Source of the DNA: Acidobacteriaceae bacterium
Lineage (GTDB): Bacteria > Acidobacteriota > Terriglobia > Terriglobales > Acidobacteriaceae
Length of the DNA: 13,482 bases
Direction of reading: 5' to 3'
Assembly: GCA_003135495.1 (NCBI GenBank)
Contig: PLBX01000119.1
Span: 1-13,482 of the forward strand
Shown here: positions 2,557 to 13,482 of the stretch, piece by piece
Layout: every line of letters starts with the position of its first letter
How positions within the stretch are numbered: the first letter of the stretch is position 1
Notes under the pieces: generated by a model
Databases searched by the model: none
Told to the model about the DNA's origin: nothing
What the model saw: the letters and a program-made list of their open reading frames with translations, nothing else
Program-made: the position numbers and the translations under genes

Positions 2557-4407
2557 TTAGTCGCGCTCGCTGTTCACAGGTGAAAAAGGATTCCTTTTCA
2601 GTTCATCGCGGTCGCCATGCTCAAGTTTGTCCGGAGCGCGTCCGGGGACCGTGATGCGAAAAACTGTTCTAGCATCCGTCGCAGGTTCGGCCGCAAAAGT
2701 GCGTTCCACCGAAACGTCGCCGCCGTGATCCTGCACGATCTTCTGCACGACTGCGAGCCCAAGCCCCGTGCCATTCTCTTTGCCGAAACTCACAAAGGGA
2801 TGAAACAGCTTGTCGCGAATTGATTCCGCGATCCCGGGGCCATTGTCCGATACAGAGATTACGATCGCATTGCCCGCACGCTGGATTCTGACCTCAACGC
2901 TTCCGTCTGTGCTGGGCGCCGCTTCGCAAGCATTGAGAAGAAGATTGTACAGAGCGCGCTCAAGTTTACGAGGATCGAACCACGCCAAACTTTGATCCTC
3001 ATTATGCATCTGGATAGAGGTTCCTTGGTGGCGCGGGTGCAATCGAACCGCGTGCATGGCCCGCTGCGCCGTTTCCGCGACGCTGGCATAAGTTGGAGTC
3101 AGCGACTCACTGGTTCTCGCGAACTCAAGCAGTGAATCGATGAGGTCGGTCATCTGATTTACTCCGGTTCGGACTTCCTGATACAACTCTTCGCGCTGCG
3201 CGGAGGTTAGCCGGCCGTCGCAAAGGAATTCAGAATTAGCGACGACGGCGGCCAGCGCGTGGCGAAGATCGTGTGAAATCGAGCTTGCCATGCGCCCAAT
3301 CGTCGCCAGCTGTTCAGATTCCAATAAAGCCTGTTGCGTCTTGAGCAGACTGGCGCGCATGCGGTCGAACGCCGCAGTCAGTTCCGCGACCTCATCGCCT
3401 CCGCGCCGGTCAAGCGGATGGTGAAAATCTCCACGTTCCAAAGCCCGTACGCCTTCCACCAAAGTAGCCAGCGGGCGGGTGAAGGTATGCGAAATGAGGA
3501 AGACCAGGCCGCTGCCCACCAGGACAGCAGCAAGACCCAGCAACAGCAGCAGACGATTGAGATTGTCGAGGAACTTGGCGGCCTGATCGTAGGAGCCGAG
3601 CACGGTCAGGCGCACAGGAATTTGGTGCTGGCCCGACAAGTCCAGCGACGCAGCTACAAAGTTTTCGTTGCCAACTTCAACATCATGAGGATCAGCTCGC
3701 GAGGATTGCGTTGCCAAGGCTCGCAGACCTGGGCTTTCAGTTTGGACCGGTGTCAGGGTTGTAGCAACGATCTCATTGCCATAGGAAAAAGCGACCTGAC
3801 TAGCAGAGACTTTGCTGATCTCGCGGGCGAAACGGTCATTGATTTCATAGCCGATGATCAAGAATCCGAGCAACGGGCCTTCCGTTTTCGTGCCAAAGTA
3901 GACTGGCTGCACAAAAGTCTGGTACAGGTGGTGGGCGTCGAACCACCAATGGCTGGATTCGTCTTCGTTTAAGGCGCTCTCAAAATATTTTTGGGCTGCT
4001 TCGCGGGCGAAGCCCGCTGATTTCGTGTGGAGAGCCACCACCGCGCCGTTGCGGTCGGCGAGCACCAGAAGATCGCTTCCGGTCAATGACCACACATCTT
4101 TTGAGGCGTCCTGAATAGTTGCGGGATCGTGCGCCGTCATGATGGCTCTCGTGATCGGCAGGTAGGCGACCAATTCCGCGGAACTCGAAAACATCAGTTC
4201 GCGATCATGCTGAAAATTCCGAAAGGTAGTGACCGAGTTCTGCAGGTCCTGCGAAATTCCTTCGCGCACATGGTGCCGCACGCTGTGTCGTACGATCAGA
4301 AGGGCCAACGCGGTCAGGCCCGTGGTAATCAATACCATTGAAAGAAGGAAACGCGTGCGCAAGCGGGTCCGCGACCCCAGCGCACTTCGGAAGTGTTCTG
4401 GAGACAT
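2557..4407 (-). CDS. Membrane sensor histidine kinase (Cache-like sensor, HAMP, HisKA, HATPase)
   Basis: From the ATG at 4407 the product has 616 residues. A TTG ten codons upstream (4437), 6 bp after the regulator stop, is the alternative start; neither has a clear ribosome site. Numbered from that TTG: TM1 is about 30-49, and residues 50-290 form a periplasmic sensor with Cache-like features (SDLLVLADRNGAVVAL, then a second half after LLGFLIIGYEI), plausibly of the dCache type. TM2 is about 295-316 and HAMP about 317-368 (RPLATLVEGV...GDEVAELTAAFDRM). The HisKA H-box is SISHDLRH with phospho-acceptor H389. The HATPase has its N-box asparagine at N502 (LLLNACEAA), DNGPG at 531-535 and GTGLGL at 556-561, so all catalytic boxes are intact. 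It should autophosphorylate on H389 and pass phosphate to the adjacent regulator. The ligand is unknown; position next to a porin and a cupredoxin suggests an envelope or nutrient/metal signal. Confidence 0.92.
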   Translation of the reverse strand: MSPEHFRSALGSRTRLRTRFLLSMVLITTGLTALALLIVRHSVRHHVREGISQDLQNSVTTFRNFQHDRELMFSSSAELVAYLPITRAIMTAHDPATIQDASKDVWSLTGSDLLVLADRNGAVVALHTKSAGFAREAAQKYFESALNEDESSHWWFDAHHLYQTFVQPVYFGTKTEGPLLGFLIIGYEINDRFAREISKVSASQVAFSYGNEIVATTLTPVQTESPGLRALATQSSRADPHDVEVGNENFVAASLDLSGQHQIPVRLTVLGSYDQAAKFLDNLNRLLLLLGLAAVLVGSGLVFLISHTFTRPLATLVEGVRALERGDFHHPLDRRGGDEVAELTAAFDRMRASLLKTQQALLESEQLATIGRMASSISHDLRHALAAVVANSEFLCDGRLTSAQREELYQEVRTGVNQMTDLIDSLLEFARTSESLTPTYASVAETAQRAMHAVRLHPRHQGTSIQMHNEDQSLAWFDPRKLERALYNLLLNACEAAPSTDGSVEVRIQRAGNAIVISVSDNGPGIAESIRDKLFHPFVSFGKENGTGLGLAVVQKIVQDHGGDVSVERTFAAEPATDARTVFRITVPGRAPDKLEHGDRDELKRNPFSPVNSERD

Positions 4408-4443
4408 TTGGGAAACGTGTTCTGGTGAAGGGTTCAAATAGTT

Positions 4444-5187
4444 TCAGCGAATGAATTTGTAACCAACTCCGTGCACGGTGCGGAAGTGTACAGGATTGGC
4501 CTGGTCTCGTTCCAATTTTTGCCGAAGCTTCAGGATGTGGTTATCGACAGTGCGGGTTGAGGGATAATTCTGGTATCCCCAAACATCGTTGAGTAGTTCA
4601 TCCCGGCTGATGACTCGGTCCACATTTTCCACCATAAACTTTAATGTCTTGAATTCCTGTGGGGTCAGGACTACCAGCTTACCGTCGCGCAGCACTTCCA
4701 TTTTCTTGAAGTCAATCGTGATGTCGTCGAAACGCACGAGACCAATGTTTGTTCTTCTTGAGGTGTGGCGCAGGGCGGCGCGCACGCGCGCCAGCAGTTC
4801 TCTGGGACTAAAAGGCTTGGTGACATAATCGTCGGCTCCCAACTCCAGCAGTAAGACCTTGTCGGAGACGTCGCTGGCGGCGCTTAAAACCACGATCGGC
4901 AAGGTTGGCGCCCGAGCCTTGATCATTCGGCATAAATCGCCTCCTGAAAGTTTGGGTAAGCGGAGGTCAAGAATGATAACCGCTGGGGGAACGGCCTGAA
5001 AGCTCTCCAATGCCGATTGTCCGTTCGCTTGAACTTCCACCGTAAAGCCTTCAGTTTCGAACATGCGCTTGAGCGCCTTCTGGACAGCGGGGTCGTCCTC
5101 GACTACGAGAATTCTGCCTGTTGGTTGTTCGAAGCTCATCGGATCTGCCGAGTTGAACGCGCTAAGTTGAATCACTGATTGACCCAT
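4444..5187 (-). CDS. OmpR/PhoB-family response regulator
   Basis: The 247-residue product has a receiver domain at about 25-140 and a winged-helix DNA-binding domain at about 150-247. In the receiver, the acidic pocket is E30-D31-D32, the phospho-acceptor is D74 (VIILDLRLP), the switch residue is S102 (VVLSAAS) and the conserved lysine is K124 (YVTKPF). In the effector domain, LTPQEFKTLKFMV is the transactivation-loop region, TRTVDNHILKLRQKLE (211-226) is the recognition helix and RTVHGVGYKF forms the wing. The start is the ATG at 5187-5185, preceded by GGAAGG with 8 nt spacing; an internal ATG (M17) would also keep the whole receiver. It is the first gene of the four-gene operon and the cognate partner of the kinase that follows. 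Its upstream region carries an 11-bp-spaced direct repeat of the type bound by PhoB-like proteins, which suggests autoregulation. Confidence 0.95.
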   Translation of the reverse strand: MGQSVIQLSAFNSADPMSFEQPTGRILVVEDDPAVQKALKRMFETEGFTVEVQANGQSALESFQAVPPAVIILDLRLPKLSGGDLCRMIKARAPTLPIVVLSAASDVSDKVLLLELGADDYVTKPFSPRELLARVRAALRHTSRRTNIGLVRFDDITIDFKKMEVLRDGKLVVLTPQEFKTLKFMVENVDRVISRDELLNDVWGYQNYPSTRTVDNHILKLRQKLERDQANPVHFRTVHGVGYKFIR

Positions 5188-7625: not shown

Positions 7626-7655
7626 AAGAATGATTCTTGTTCCAGAAACGGAACA
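7626..7655. repeat. Two adjacent palindromes upstream of the small-gene cluster
   Basis: AAGAAT-G-ATTCTT (7626-7638) is a perfect 13-bp palindrome. It abuts a second one, TGTTCC-AGAAAC-GGAACA (7638-7655, within CTTGTTCC). Both lie in the 191-bp gap between the one-TM gene end and the GTG at 7555, 70-100 bp upstream of that start. They could be operators for the cluster or RNA structure ending the upstream transcript. No T run follows. Otherwise I see nothing in this gap. Confidence 0.35.
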
Positions 7656-7746
7656 CAAGCCCGGCCGTGGAGGAGGAATTTGCGGCTAAGAAGATCGCAT
7701 AACACCGGGGGGTTGAAGCATTGCAATCTAACCCTGTGCACGAACG

Positions 7747-8274
7747 CTATGAAGTTTGTCTTCGTGCGCTTTGCAGCATGCTGTAACGAGCGAGCAAGCC
7801 AATGGAGCGTCCATGGTGCTCGATTAACGATTGAGGGCTCGGCAAGCGAAGACTGGGGAAAGTAGCGATAATGAATAGCCGTCCCATGGTAGCCAGCGCC
7901 AGCATGCGCATTTCGACGGCGTCCGCTGCAATTTGTTTTCCCAGTTCCGCCAAACTCGGGTCGTCGCTCCCGCGCGCAGCATTTCCGAAGCGGCTGAATT
8001 GGAGCGCAATGTGAGACAGAGCTCTAGCGTAGGCTAGGGCCGCCCACGCTCTTTCGCGTTTTATTTTCAGGAACTCATCGGCAGGCAGGCACGAACGAAG
8101 AAATATTTCTTCTTCCGGATCAACGAGATTGCGGAAAGCCTCAATATCCAAAGAGCCCATCAATGACCGAGCGTGGTCAAGGGCTAACGGTCCTCTGCGC
8201 TGTCGAACGGCCACGGACGTAAGGGCTATCACGACAAGAACCGCCAAACCGATATAAATCGCGGCGGGACTCAT
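7747..8274 (-). CDS. One-TM membrane-anchored protein of unknown function (175 aa)
   Basis: I chose the ATG at 8274-8272 because it forms a classic ATGA overlap with the stop of the seven-TM gene. An ATG ten codons upstream is possible, but its purine stretch directly abuts the start. One transmembrane helix (about residues 4-22, IYIGLAVLVVIALTSVAV) is followed by RQRR, giving a cytoplasmic C-terminal domain of about 150 residues that is helical. It includes ALDHARSLMGSLDIEAFRNLVDPEEEIFLRSCLP, then KIKRERAWAALAYARALSHIA. I recognise a general resemblance to an acidobacterial family that accompanies seven-TM proteins, but know no function. Translational coupling to the seven-TM gene suggests a physical partner. 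Confidence 0.75.
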   Translation of the reverse strand: MSPAAIYIGLAVLVVIALTSVAVRQRRGPLALDHARSLMGSLDIEAFRNLVDPEEEIFLRSCLPADEFLKIKRERAWAALAYARALSHIALQFSRFGNAARGSDDPSLAELGKQIAADAVEMRMLALATMGRLFIIATFPSLRLPSPQSLIEHHGRSIGLLARYSMLQSARRQTS

Positions 8275-9032
8275 AGCAAAAATCGCTTCAATGCCAGGTT
8301 CCATTCCTTCATCTCAGCCATAGGCCGTTCGCTGTGTTGGATTCTTATTCTCGCCGGAATAATCAAGTATCCCAGCCAGACCACAACAGCGACGTGATAC
8401 CCTCCGGTCGGCAATAGGTTCAGAACTTTCGCGGCGGAAACCGAAAGGTCCTCCGTATGCATTGCCCAGTTAGCAAGTTCCACGCTCGATAGAACTCCAA
8501 AGCCGAATGCCATTCCGAAAGCATAGCTTTGCAAAGATAAACCCAACAGACCTGAGAAGAGGAATAAAAAAAGCACTAAGCCGCACTGAATAATCGCCAC
8601 GCCCCGCTCCACCCACGCCGTCCCCGCTATAAGCGTGCTGGACGTATGACCGGACGAGAAAACTGAGCACAAAATAGCGAGAGTTACCAGAAACAGGGTC
8701 GTCCATCGGAGAGAAACGCGAGCCACCGTCTCTGATTGTTTTTGTTCTCGGAAGATGTTATCGAAAATCTCTTGAATCACGCCAAATCGGAGCGCCGTGC
8801 TAATAGCCAATGTGCCCAGGTAAATGTGCGCATAGTAAGCGCCCAAGTTGAGATTGCGCTGGGAAACCAGAAACAGCAGAACAAATTCTATTATCTCGTA
8901 GCAGACATACCCGAAAAAAACGGGATATTTGACGTGCAAGCGCCGTTTCAACAATAGAAATGCAACCCACGTAAGAAGGAGATGGGGCGCGATCCAGAGA
9001 TAGAGGAGGACAAGATTGTACCAATGTATCAT
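8271..9032 (-). CDS. Seven-transmembrane protein of unknown function (253 aa)
   Basis: From the ATG at 9032 the protein starts MIHWYNLVLLYLW and has seven predicted membrane spans at about 7-28, 36-56, 67-90, 108-125, 143-164, 168-190 and 206-227, with a short basic cytoplasmic tail. The frame is open further up to a TTG directly after the peptide gene stop, but that extension is polar and unconvincing. No ribosome site is evident at the ATG, so translation may be coupled. The IQEIFDNIFREQ loop after TM3 resembles a motif I associate with acidobacterial seven-TM proteins. No transporter or enzyme signature is seen. It lies between a secreted mini-peptide gene (69 bp upstream) and a one-TM gene overlapping by 4 bp, consistent with a sensor, exporter or immunity role; this is inference. 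Confidence 0.75.
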   Translation of the reverse strand: MIHWYNLVLLYLWIAPHLLLTWVAFLLLKRRLHVKYPVFFGYVCYEIIEFVLLFLVSQRNLNLGAYYAHIYLGTLAISTALRFGVIQEIFDNIFREQKQSETVARVSLRWTTLFLVTLAILCSVFSSGHTSSTLIAGTAWVERGVAIIQCGLVLFLFLFSGLLGLSLQSYAFGMAFGFGVLSSVELANWAMHTEDLSVSAAKVLNLLPTGGYHVAVVVWLGYLIIPARIRIQHSERPMAEMKEWNLALKRFLL

Positions 9033-9101
9033 CCGGCTTAGAGTTGAATATATTTGCCGGAAAGCCAATTTGCAATCCCTGAATCTCGCCCCGGATTCCA
9101 A

Positions 9102-9224
9102 TTATGTGGGTGGTATGCAACCGGTCTTATCGCAGATCGGGAGAGGGTTGCCGTCGGCAAAGCTCGATGCGGACGTGACCAACAGAATGACGCCTATTGC
9201 CAAAACTCGCAGAATGTTCTTCAC
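9102..9224 (-). CDS. Secreted mini-peptide, 40 aa, mature part about 18 residues with CxxxxC
   Basis: The gene starts at a GTG (9224-9222) with AAGGAG 7 nt upstream, an excellent ribosome site for so small a frame. The product has a short basic start (KNILR), a hydrophobic core (VLAIGVILLVTSA) and a signal-peptidase site near SSFA. This would release a mature peptide DGNPLPICDKTGCIPPT or one residue longer. The peptide is proline-rich, with two cysteines four residues apart that could form a disulfide. It precedes the seven-TM and one-TM genes on the same strand. A peptide signal, bacteriocin-like effector or structural peptide are all possible. I recall similar acidobacterial peptides with an ADGNPxPxC core, but could not search. 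The frame is open upstream, but that part lacks a signal peptide. Confidence 0.7.
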   Translation of the reverse strand: MKNILRVLAIGVILLVTSASSFADGNPLPICDKTGCIPPT

Positions 9225-9271: not shown

Positions 9272-9330
9272 ACAATTGACTGTTCGCGCGCCCGTCGCGC
9301 TTAACAACTCTTTTCGGAAAGTGTAAAACT

Positions 9331-9798
9331 GTGGTCCTTCTATCAGCTATCCAAGACTTCGAAGGCAGAACGCTGAGTGCCGTTCCTGGATTGTTGGGGA
9401 AATTGCGGTATGTCGCGCTCCTGTGCAAGAACAAGGGAGAAGGTTTTCACTGGGGATTACAGAAAATCTATGGAAGCGGAGCGGCCGAGAAGGCGATCAA
9501 GAACTCGCACCGAGCGCTGATCGGGCAAGTACTGAGAACTCCATTGCGGGATCTTGAGGAAGACCTGAGGCACTCGGCGGCGCGAGCGCAAGTTACGGAG
9601 TTTGAGTTGTTAGCTTGCTTCGGAACGTCTGAGCGGAACGCGCCTCCAGTTCAGAATTTTCGGGCTTCAGAAAAACATTTCATGTCAGTTCTGCACACTC
9701 TTTCGGCTCTGGCTCAGCATAACGCACTTGCCATCCCCCAAAACGTATTGCCGCCCCCACCACCTGCCCAATCACCTCGGCCTCCTGTGGGTGCTTAA
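9331..9798 (+). CDS. Conserved-looking protein of unknown function with Pro-rich tail (155 aa)
   Basis: The start is a GTG at 9331-9333 with GGAAAG 9 nt upstream. The first 80 residues (VLLSAIQDFEGRTLSAVPGL, then GKLRYVALL, HWGLQKIYG and SHRALIGQVLRTPLRDLEEDL) are compact and look like a real, mostly helical domain. I associate it with small acidobacterial proteins, and know no function. The C-terminus is proline-rich (VLPPPPPAQSPRPP). There is no signal peptide or membrane span. The last 39 codons overlap the end of the opposing XRE gene, an unusually long convergent overlap for two genes that both look genuine. It is divergent from the mini-peptide gene; a TTGACT at 9276-9281 could be its -35 element, but the -10 is poor. 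Confidence 0.7.
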   Translation: MVLLSAIQDFEGRTLSAVPGLLGKLRYVALLCKNKGEGFHWGLQKIYGSGAAEKAIKNSHRALIGQVLRTPLRDLEEDLRHSAARAQVTEFELLACFGTSERNAPPVQNFRASEKHFMSVLHTLSALAQHNALAIPQNVLPPPPPAQSPRPPVGA

Positions 9799-10489
9799 GA
9801 GTTCGAATCGAAACTGGTGACAAGGGATGCGATTGCAGAATGATGCGATCGCCACTGACGTTACACCACGAACAGACAAAACCAGCACGGGTTTCGACAA
9901 AGTAGATCGGACGCTCCATCTCAGAGCGCCAAACACCTTCAACCACACGATTCTTAGTTTCGTCTATCTGCACGAAGCTGCCGGGCGGAAGCAAAGGGTA
10001 CATCGTGAAATCTTCTGTGCCTATATAGCCGTAGGTGTATCGGTCATCGGCGAGTGTCGAGAGGTAGGTGAGCGGCACCACACCCCATTGCTCGATCATG
10101 CGCGCCATATTTGTTGTCCGAGAGAGTGAGAAACCAGGGTCCAGCCGCACCGGAATCTTTGCTTCAGTCGCTACTCCTGAAACCTCGGTGAGATGTGACC
10201 GATTCGGTCGCGCAGACCCGAGATCGGCAGCCATATCATTCAGATCGACGCCATACCACGACAGCAGAGCACGGTAATCGGAACGATAGATTGCCGCCAA
10301 CGTATATAAACGAAAAATGCTGGGAACAACTCCCTTTGTCTCGATATCGGACAGTCGACTCGGCGGAATCGCAAACTCGTCATTCCCTAGCCTTCGCGCA
10401 ACTTGAATGCTGCCGGTCTCCACATCTCGCATCGTGTAACCAAGCGATTCTCTCATCGCCCGAAGCCTATGCCCACCAGCAAGCGACAC
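9680..10489 (-). CDS. XRE-type HTH regulator with S24/LexA-like C-terminal domain
   Basis: The 269-residue product starts at a GTG (10489-10487) 7 nt after a run of seven G that can act as ribosome site. Residues 7-80 form an XRE/Cro-type helix-turn-helix (HRLRAMRESLGYTMRDVE, then PPSRLSDIETKGVVPSIFRLYTLAAIY). Residues about 130-250 have the layout of a LexA/CI S24 fold (YGYIGTEDFTMYPLLPPGSFVQID, then RPIYFVETR, CSWCNVSG, AEVIGQVVGAA). The serine-methionine of the S24 active site is replaced by T162-M163, and no catalytic lysine is obvious, so it probably does not self-cleave and may instead bind a ligand or partner. Such proteins look common in Acidobacteriota. The C-terminal 39 codons overlap the convergent 155-residue gene. 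A good promoter lies immediately upstream. Confidence 0.88.
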   Translation of the reverse strand: MSLAGGHRLRAMRESLGYTMRDVETGSIQVARRLGNDEFAIPPSRLSDIETKGVVPSIFRLYTLAAIYRSDYRALLSWYGVDLNDMAADLGSARPNRSHLTEVSGVATEAKIPVRLDPGFSLSRTTNMARMIEQWGVVPLTYLSTLADDRYTYGYIGTEDFTMYPLLPPGSFVQIDETKNRVVEGVWRSEMERPIYFVETRAGFVCSWCNVSGDRIILQSHPLSPVSIRTLKHPQEAEVIGQVVGAAIRFGGWQVRYAEPEPKECAELT

Positions 10490-10542: not shown

Positions 10543-10626
10543 ACGAATCGAGGCCCGGCTTGTTCGAGTTTCGTAACACACATGATCGGTCTACTCTATT
10601 GCAGCAATGGGACTTCCAAGGTTCTT

Positions 10627-11077: not shown

Positions 11078-13482
11078 CTACTCGCGTTCGGAGTAACGTC
11101 GCGGAGACGGAAGAGTCACGGCCCCACCGACCGCGATTGAAAACTCCTTCTTTGCGGACACGCCATCGAGACCCTCAGCCGTAAACTTCACCTTGTAATT
11201 TCCGGCGGCCGTGTACGCATGAGTCAGAGTTGAGCCATCAGCGACGGTTCCATCGCCGAAATCCCAGTGATAGGCGAGCGCGGGAACTCCATCGGCCGCC
11301 ACCTTGCTGGAGAATTCTATCTCTTCCCCGATTTTTGCTTGAGACTGTACCTGGAAGGCAATCGACGGTGCGGTGGCGGGAATTGAAGCATCAATAATCT
11401 TGATGAGCTTGACCGAGTGTGCGGGCTGATTCTCCAGGCGCAGCGCTTCGTGGTCCACCGCCAGCGGATGATTTTGCGCAAGGATGTCGAATAACTTGTA
11501 TGAGCGTCCGGAGGGAAGCTTTAGATCGCTAAAAGTCAAAGTGTGCGAGCGCGATTGCTCGGTCCAGTTAAAGACCGCCAAAATGGACTGACGCTGGTCT
11601 TGGGGTAGCCAAAACACGCTAGGTTGCTCGTCATTGTCCTCGTAACTCAGAAGATCCAGAGGCAAAGCCGCTCTCCCCAATTTTGCCATCGCGAGCAAAT
11701 CAGGATTCTCGACTAGCGCCACGCGTTCCGCATCTTTCCCTAGGGTCGGAAGGTCGTCGCCAATTTCGAACATTCCTCCTGAAACCGCAGCGAGGGCGAT
11801 GGAGACCCCCGCCTCGTTCAACGTAAGAGGAGCTTGAATGGTACGTTCTTCGAGAAGTTGGCGGGAAACTGTGAAGGCGTCCGGATCCTCAATGAAAAAG
11901 TTCCGGTGCATGTAATAGCGTGCAGCAATGCCGGGCTCGGCTTCCTTGCTGCGGAGAAACGCGTGACCGGTATCCTGAGATACCCGGCCTTCATCCACCA
12001 AACCTACAGGGTTCAACATTGGACTGCCATCTTTGTCGAGCAGCACATCGTTTCCGACTGTCTTGCGAATAATCTCCAGACCAAGCCGCTGCGCTTCAAG
12101 CGCCGATGTATTCGGACGATGGTAGTAACCCTCAATTGCCGAGTTATCCATGAAGTCGAGCTTGATGTAACGCGCGCCCCATTCTTTGACTAACGTGTTA
12201 TAAGTCTGCCGCAGATATTCCTGCGCTTCAGGATGTGTGACGTCTAAGACGAAGAGACGTTCGCCCTCGACCTCTTCGGCTTTGCCGATGCAGATGGGAT
12301 CGCCATGGGCGTTGTGCACCAGCCAATCTTTATGGTGCTCGTAGATCCAGGCGCGCTCGCCCACTTCAAAGGGAGCGGTCCAAACGCCTACTTTCAATCC
12401 CAATCGGGCTACGCGATGAGTTATGTCCCACATGCCATGCGGAAATTGCGAAGCATTCGGAGTTGCATATTCGCTGCGCGAGTATCCGTAACCCAGGTCG
12501 AAATGAAAATAGTCGTAGCCGAGGTTCCTCAGGTGCTGGGCGAGCCATTCAGCGTTTGTCAGCGCAGCGCCTTCGGTGATCTTGAAGTAAAACGCAGTCC
12601 AGCTCCACCATCCGAGCATATTGTTTGCGCTCACGCGGCTGTGATGGAGCTCGCGAATCGCGGCGCCATAGTTTTCCAGTTGCGAGTGGTAGTGATTTCC
12701 GGCGGCAAACATCAGGCGCTCTGAAGAAATTGACTCGCCCGCTGGTAGAGGAACGTTTAATTCGATCAGGTTTTCGGCCGGGCCTTCGCGCAGGCCGGAT
12801 TCCTCATCGGTGGCTTGTATCTCGGTCGTTCCAGTCGAATCGATGGTGAATGCGGCGATGGCGGGTCCGTCCGGCGATGAAGATTCGGTCTGCAGATGAA
12901 TGATGGTGAGGAAGCGATTGGAAGTGAGGGCGCCCCAAAACAGGCTCTCATGGCTGTCGCGGTTGTAAATTAGCTGGCTGCCCACGGCCCGATGCATTCC
13001 CTTGGGAGCTCTTCCCAGGTTGTAAATCTGTAGCGGCGGCCAATCTTCGCTGAAGCTATCGGAAAGAACGCGGTCGCTTTTTTGCGCGCCCGCTAGATCG
13101 ATCGTTCTGCTTCCGACAGCCTCGACGCTTCGGATGCTTTGGATCGTGGCTGCTTTGCCTGTGTAATTCCGTACCTCGGCCCCGATGACGCCGAAAGATT
13201 TGCCCTCGTAGATTTGCAGCGTGTAGGCGAGATCGGGGAAAGTCGATAGTCCGGAGGAGGTGATTGTAATTTTCTTGCCATGTCCGAGAGCATCGTCGAA
13301 GTTCGACTGAGCGATGTCGTGTTTCGGATAATCGGTTGACTTAACCCATTTGTGATCGATCTCCGCCGCGACTCTTGCCTGGATGACGCTGTGCCCGTCG
13401 CTTCCAGATCGGATTTCGTAGGTTCCATCGGGCTGAATTACGACGGCTAGCCCGGCGGCGGACGCACTGAGCCGCACGGGCG
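11078..13482 (-). CDS. Alpha-galactosidase-like glycoside hydrolase (GH36/GH27 type) with PKD domain; 5' end outside window
   Basis: The frame is open to the window edge. About 800 residues are visible, and no signal peptide is seen, so the true start is upstream. Numbered from the first in-window GTG (13477): residues 1-270 are an N-terminal beta-sandwich. Residues 285-560 are a TIM barrel of the melibiase clan (WWSWTAFYF, LGYDYFHFDLGYGY, LKVGVWTAPF, YIKLDFMD, DEGRVSQDTGHAF). D441 in KLDF is the expected nucleophile, and D502 in RVSQD the expected acid/base. Residues 600-695 are a C-terminal beta domain. Residues about 703-783 are a PKD domain (YHWDFGDG at 736-743, HAYTAAGNYKV at 753-763), usually extracellular. 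It likely releases terminal alpha-galactose from oligo- or polysaccharides; the exact substrate is unknown. The last dozen residues before the TAG seem derived from a fused alpha/beta hydrolase, so the natural C-terminus may be lost. Confidence 0.88.
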   Translation of the reverse strand, partial: PVRLSASAAGLAVVIQPDGTYEIRSGSDGHSVIQARVAAEIDHKWVKSTDYPKHDIAQSNFDDALGHGKKITITSSGLSTFPDLAYTLQIYEGKSFGVIGAEVRNYTGKAATIQSIRSVEAVGSRTIDLAGAQKSDRVLSDSFSEDWPPLQIYNLGRAPKGMHRAVGSQLIYNRDSHESLFWGALTSNRFLTIIHLQTESSSPDGPAIAAFTIDSTGTTEIQATDEESGLREGPAENLIELNVPLPAGESISSERLMFAAGNHYHSQLENYGAAIRELHHSRVSANNMLGWWSWTAFYFKITEGAALTNAEWLAQHLRNLGYDYFHFDLGYGYSRSEYATPNASQFPHGMWDITHRVARLGLKVGVWTAPFEVGERAWIYEHHKDWLVHNAHGDPICIGKAEEVEGERLFVLDVTHPEAQEYLRQTYNTLVKEWGARYIKLDFMDNSAIEGYYHRPNTSALEAQRLGLEIIRKTVGNDVLLDKDGSPMLNPVGLVDEGRVSQDTGHAFLRSKEAEPGIAARYYMHRNFFIEDPDAFTVSRQLLEERTIQAPLTLNEAGVSIALAAVSGGMFEIGDDLPTLGKDAERVALVENPDLLAMAKLGRAALPLDLLSYEDNDEQPSVFWLPQDQRQSILAVFNWTEQSRSHTLTFSDLKLPSGRSYKLFDILAQNHPLAVDHEALRLENQPAHSVKLIKIIDASIPATAPSIAFQVQSQAKIGEEIEFSSKVAADGVPALAYHWDFGDGTVADGSTLTHAYTAAGNYKVKFTAEGLDGVSAKKEFSIAVGGAVTLPSPRRYSERE

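Follow-up and report, generated by a model that had tools for sequence, protein, structure and literature searches.

A reading frame of 40 codons with a signal sequence, encoded beside a seven-transmembrane (seven-TM) and a one-TM protein in an acidobacterial contig, raises the question whether so short a frame is a real gene and, if it is, what the peptide does together with its membrane-protein neighbour. The first-pass annotation of this DNA had proposed a peptide-based system of these three genes, with signalling, export or toxin/immunity as the candidate functions. The window (the whole stretch of 13,482 nucleotides that was analysed) belongs to a draft genome of 4.76 Mb that is 75 % complete.

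The mini-peptide gene (9102..9224, minus strand) encodes 40 aa from a GTG start, with AAGGAG situated 8–13 nt upstream of the GTG and a signal sequence followed by the tail DGNPLPICDKTGCIPPT; the short gene, its strong ribosome site and its signal peptide were all found in the window as announced, and so was the mature sequence, which comprises 17 residues and not the 18 originally given. The seven-TM gene (8271..9032, minus strand, 253 aa) begins 69 bp after the peptide stop on the same strand, in agreement with the earlier reading. The minus-strand bases 8274..8271 read ATGA and join it to the one-TM gene (7747..8274, minus strand), which encodes 175 aa with a cytosolic helical domain. This overlap holds provided that the ATG at 8274 is the start, as the longest one-TM ORF begins at 8304 and encodes 185 aa. 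Two genes absent from the initial three-gene set are also part of the locus: C8 (9331..9798, plus strand), encoding a small soluble protein and divergent from the peptide gene, and a gene for an XRE-type HTH regulator of 269 aa (9680..10489, minus strand). At their convergent 3' ends the HTH and C8 genes share 119 bp (9680–9798), and both frames are conserved across loci.

No credible Pfam or NCBIfam match was obtained for the mini-peptide, the seven-TM or the one-TM protein, and among the five proteins of the locus only the HTH part gave a family match, weak and below the cut-off. NCBIfam, PHROGs, PADLOC and PDB sequences provided no usable family for the locus proteins. Elsewhere in the window, beyond the locus, a histidine kinase (2557–4437) and response regulator pair occupies positions 2557–5187, and a Melibiase-type glycoside hydrolase with a PKD domain positions 11078–13477. 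The histidine kinase was not a syntenic neighbour of the locus in the other loci compared.

A database search with the peptide returned five proteins of 41–57 aa with 59–83 % identity; one of them, ABSG02_04015, adjoins the seven-TM homologue ABSG02_04010 in a Terriglobales MAG. Short ORFs with a signal-like start and a P..C..C tail were then counted in 80 oriented seven-TM loci (700,802 bp) against a Markov-3 null. The pattern was fitted by 80 ORFs, in comparison to 3.4 expected per equal length (1.2 with a ribosome site), and 75 of the 80 adjoin the seven-TM gene on the same strand, the other five lying away from it, one each in L081, L084, L087, L095 and L106. Purifying selection was evident from dN<dS in all 33 tandem peptide pairs compared (two of the four L070 copies being used) and in all eight orthologue pairs, with nearly equal values for L107/L108 (0.052 and 0.061); for the window peptide and that of L095 dN was 0.26 and dS 1.1. 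A chance ORF was rejected on the basis of the excess over Markov-3 sequence and of dN<dS. The mini-peptide gene is thus real and protein-coding.

The association of the peptide with the seven-TM protein was evaluated at 116 seven-TM loci, five of which (L066, L083, L099, L118 and L121) were left out as contig-end cuts. Among the remaining 111, a Cys-containing signal-peptide ORF adjoins the seven-TM gene at 87, another small signal-peptide ORF at 14 (L057, L060, L074, L082, L085, L086, L087, L091, L101, L106, L117, L122, L125 and L135), and none was found at 10 (L076, L077, L079, L080, L084, L138, L148, L152, L163 and L164, the single candidate of L164 being judged spurious). The figure of 87 was reached after hand correction of an automatic rule that had flagged 85 of the 116 loci: L057, L082 and L087 were removed since the flagged ORF was apparently spurious, and L050, L102, L103, L155 and L159, with Cys peptides outside the rule, were added. 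The loci were not de-replicated in these counts, and L061 and L116 share one peptide. The earlier proposal had depended on homologous short frames being present near orthologous seven-TM genes, and such frames of the Cys type were indeed found at 87 of the 111 loci.

A single-sequence peptide search of 396 phylum genomes gave matches at E<=0.1 in 14 genomes, several of them within long frames, and was superseded by profile A4, built from 30 window-type peptides. At E<=0.05 this profile matched sequences in 64 of the 100 genomes analysed from the family. All 53 matches at E<=1e-5 in these 100 genomes adjoin a seven-TM gene on the same strand, including G440:C106 and G472:C86 at 61 and 88 bp from seven-TM matches. 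Proximity was scored down to E 0.0085 against the seven-TM matches listed, which placed at least 13 of 16 matches with E between 1e-5 and 1e-3, and at least 6 of 16 with E between 1e-3 and 1e-2, beside a seven-TM gene. The peptide gene lies upstream of the seven-TM gene in 52 of the 70 near matches scored and downstream in 18; the latter order is also that of a second pair on contig C324 of the window's own genome. The peptide and the seven-TM protein therefore form a near-obligate pair.

The signal sequence and a P-x-C tail are conserved across the peptide family. Together with the pairing and with dN<dS, this substantiates the proposal of a conserved peptide and seven-TM system in acidobacteria. 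Because of the signal sequence the mini-peptide is probably exported. CxxxxC, the spacing named in the first-pass annotation, did not hold as a family trait: most peptides have one or two Cys at variable spacing, and some, e.g. those of L060, L074, L117, L125 and L135, have no Cys in the tail and stand alongside the same seven-TM family. The Cys-free tails of L074 and L117, encoded beside short seven-TM genes, contain a GSPxPxP or GLHGPLPVPMP unit repeated 2–3 times. Peptide genes also occur in tandem, with six copies in L067, four in L070 and three each in L063, L071, L072 and L094. The tails differ strongly between lineages and are conserved inside tandem arrays, which fits a ligand with dose dependence.

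The seven-TM profile was detected in 94 of the 100 family genomes (in 71 when only the 73 good genomes are counted) and, in a sample of the phylum, in 43 of 44 family genomes and, weakly (E 1e-6 to 1e-10), in 8 of 352 others. The seven-TM family is core in this acidobacterial family. An alignment-based scan for named relatives of the gene yielded 29 loci, in acidobacterial MAGs. Seven of the eight loci from outside the family were examined, and a Cys-rich signal-peptide ORF was present upstream in two (L181 from the same class and L184 from the same phylum) and absent in five; three further loci within the family all have one upstream. Two distant relatives outside the family, L178 and L183, are followed by similar one-TM ORFs of 60–69 aa, perhaps stand-ins for the one-TM gene.

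The seven-TM ORFs comprise about 230–350 aa with no recognised fused domain, neither kinase nor cyclase. A Pfam search with 117 members at E<=0.1 listed 13 families, none of them fitting. An initial AlphaFold2 model had a pLDDT of no more than 56.6, and its fold matches were set aside; a more diverse alignment gave a second model, with seven long helices and a C-terminal helix, on which the structural comparisons are based. The charge pattern predicts an N-out/C-in topology. The cytoplasmic halves of the helices are more conserved than the periplasmic halves (mean entropy 1.86 vs 2.52, p 4e-7), with 23 low-entropy positions in the former vs 4 in the latter, and no catalytic-looking set was seen among the invariant columns of the alignment. 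In a VIA-align comparison GPCRs, including peptide receptors, constituted 44 of the 50 matches listed, a resemblance below the tool's caution line for helical bundles. Neither Foldseek nor a viral structure library gave a match to the model at E<=0.001.

Two locus subtypes were distinguished. In the short subtype, to which the window belongs, the gene order is HTH>, <C8, peptide>, seven-TM>, one-TM>. The one-TM gene is conserved behind short seven-TM genes and accompanies this subtype only; of the three genes first proposed as a system, those for the peptide and the seven-TM protein form the near-obligate pair. The long subtype has a seven-TM protein of ~300 aa, no linked regulator or one-TM gene, and neighbours which we take from their sequence to be gyrB, rpsA and infC. 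At E<=1e-10 the HTH protein was found in 55 of the 100 family genomes; the count for C8, at E<=1e-4, was 47. Among 54 HTH loci (49 with closer and 5 with distant HTH homologues, several being contig-end cuts), C8 is present in 45, the seven-TM gene in 36 and the one-TM gene in 39. No seven-TM gene was found in L140, L142, L143 and L146, where C8 is followed directly by the gene for the one-TM protein; this protein may for this reason be a component of the regulatory part of the system. L131 and L147 show HTH and C8 only. The HTH protein carries a C-x-W-C motif (CSWC in the window, CCWC in the consensus), with the two Cys in 96 and 100 % of 64 sequences. Its C-terminal domain presumably resembles S24/LexA, a domain for which Pfam gave no match.

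Between C8 and the peptide gene, about 94–115 bp before the peptide start, a palindrome-like motif with the consensus TTGTTACGATTTCCGAAAAC was found in 41 loci. Its score had a median of 21.3 and a minimum of 6.1 (shuffled 99th percentile 8.4) in these same 41 loci, on which the eye-seeded matrix had been trained; the independent tests are the counts upstream of HTH genes and in other loci. Upstream of the HTH gene, 18 of 39 loci had a motif score beyond the 99th percentile of shuffles, vs 4 of 39 for HTH coding sequences, a control that is itself above the ~0.4 expected from shuffles; among seven-TM loci outside the training set the motif occurred in 1 of 63. In the window the operator candidate between C8 and the peptide gene (9310..9329, score 21.0) is a training-set site, and two further copies are outside the training set: one at 10560..10579, 71 bp upstream of the HTH gene (score 16.7), and one at 7637..7656, 91 bp downstream of the one-TM gene and before small candidate ORFs (score 15.4). 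These sites had not been listed in the first-pass annotation. The simplest reading of this arrangement is that the HTH protein would regulate the C8/peptide promoter as well as its own gene. A second recurring motif, ATTATCACGG, was noticed roughly 30–50 bp before the peptide start in L125, L126, L129 and other HTH-linked loci, and is possibly a promoter or another operator.

Of the functions first suggested, signalling appears the most likely, favoured by the pairing and the conservation. The locus may encode a peptide ligand and a stand-alone seven-TM receptor, i.e. a peptide signalling module, a reading that we hold tentatively, at a little short of even confidence. The exported mini-peptide would act as a ligand through its short Pro/Cys tail, free or membrane-tethered, which would meet the seven-TM protein from the periplasm; the seven-TM protein would pass the signal to its own conserved cytoplasmic face. 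In the window's subtype the signal would be relayed by the cytosolic domain of the one-TM protein; the long subtype may use the seven-TM protein's own C-terminal tail instead. In the window's subtype an autoregulated loop would also result from binding of the HTH regulator to the operator-like sites that precede C8/peptide and the HTH gene itself, with C8 as likely partner or antagonist of the regulator. Binding, signal direction, regulator–site contact, the functions assigned to C8 and to the one-TM protein, and the nature of the process under control are what we infer here. The near-obligate pairing, dN<dS, the N-out/C-in topology, the cytoplasmic conservation, the lack of a catalytic-looking set, the GPCR-like matches (not significant), the HTH/C8 linkage and the motif were counted in support of signalling. 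Counted against it were the non-significance of the GPCR resemblance, the 10 of 111 loci without a candidate peptide, the long subtype without linked regulator or one-TM gene, and the result of a co-variation analysis. In that analysis 79 peptides were typed and 77 pairs used, the rest having no seven-TM sequence over 200 aa, and the partial correlations of the tail with the periplasmic and cytoplasmic halves of the seven-TM protein were 0.22 and 0.28 (permutation p for the difference 0.82). The corresponding values were 0.21 and 0.12 in the window-type subset, a difference that was not significant, and in the non-window subset the cytoplasmic correlation was the larger (0.42 vs 0.17). The predicted stronger co-variation of the tail with the outer than with the inner half was thus not observed.

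For this reason a second reading was retained, in which the peptide is not a signal but a permanent small subunit or periplasmic cofactor needed for folding, assembly or activity of the seven-TM protein, which could be e.g. a transporter or channel. We regard this as rather doubtful. It agrees with the near-obligate one-to-one adjacency, with a tail that co-varies with the whole seven-TM protein rather than its outer half, and with the hydrophobic stretch, which on our reading of the sequence could remain as an anchor in some members (e.g. L104–L114). However, arrays of up to six peptide copies per seven-TM gene suit ligand dose better than stoichiometry, and the strong differences of the tails between lineages and the cytoplasmic position of the conserved face also speak against a subunit.

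A bacteriocin-like toxin with the seven-TM protein as its immunity protein would match a common layout, in which a small Cys-containing peptide for export is encoded next to a protein with several membrane spans. The distribution of such systems is usually patchy, whereas the seven-TM gene is core; this and the conserved inner face make toxin/immunity less likely, and with no PADLOC or PHROGs family of note we consider it improbable. Lower still we place a redox or metal device, in which the Cys pair would sense or carry a metal or oxidant to be taken up or reported by the seven-TM protein: the one or two Cys of most peptides and the conserved Cys of the HTH C-x-W-C motif would suit it, but the Cys spacing is variable and the Cys-free tails occur beside the same seven-TM family.

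The proposed peptide signalling module was compared with known systems. In AgrD/AgrC and ComX/ComP, the peptide quorum sensing systems of Gram-positive bacteria, a small exported peptide is likewise encoded beside a multi-span membrane protein with a linked regulator. Unlike these, the seven-TM protein described here is acidobacterial and has neither a kinase domain nor a Pfam match, and the peptide has an ordinary-looking signal sequence with no linked gene for a dedicated processing protease. The AgrB family gave no Pfam match in any of the 117 seven-TM members, and no conserved linked histidine kinase was seen. With GPCRs, including peptide receptors and Ste2, the protein shares seven helices, the predicted N-out/C-in topology and a conserved cytoplasmic face; it differs in that none of the 117 members matched a GPCR Pfam profile, the structural matches were not significant and identity was about 10 %. 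G proteins are, to our knowledge, not expected in bacteria. The idea of a seven-TM sensor is familiar from the bacterial 7TMR-DISM, 7TMR-HD and LytS-type receptors, which have fused cytosolic output domains and a Pfam family of their own, whereas the 117 members have no such Pfam match or fused domain and the gene pairs with a peptide gene. Microbial rhodopsins are alike in their seven-helix arrangement (4hyj is in the Foldseek rows with TMq 0.49) and unlike in the Lys of TM7 that binds retinal, as no Lys occurs in the invariant or nearly invariant columns, and in the lack of a Pfam match. No description of such a gene pair was found in the titles and abstract openings of a literature search covering mainly openly accessible papers. 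We consider the locus new with respect to both its protein families and their combination.

At its most far-reaching, the finding would mean that a family of soil acidobacteria has, as a core feature, a bacterial equivalent of signalling by peptide hormones and GPCRs. The exported mini-peptide would be the ligand and the seven-TM protein its receptor, GPCR-like in fold and free of a kinase; in one subtype a one-TM protein would relay the signal and HTH and C8 would form an autoregulated circuit, and tandem copies of the peptide gene would amplify the dose. We regard this full picture as unlikely. The pair raises the question whether the logic of a peptide and a GPCR-like receptor could operate in bacteria with no fused kinase. 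Should the function prove to be peptide signalling, the locus would represent a novel class of a type of biology already known. The pair also adds a family of very short genes that are easily skipped by annotation. Acidobacteria are among the commonest soil bacteria, and the pair of peptide and seven-TM protein, being core and near-obligate, offers a concrete candidate, open to testing, for communication by peptides among them.
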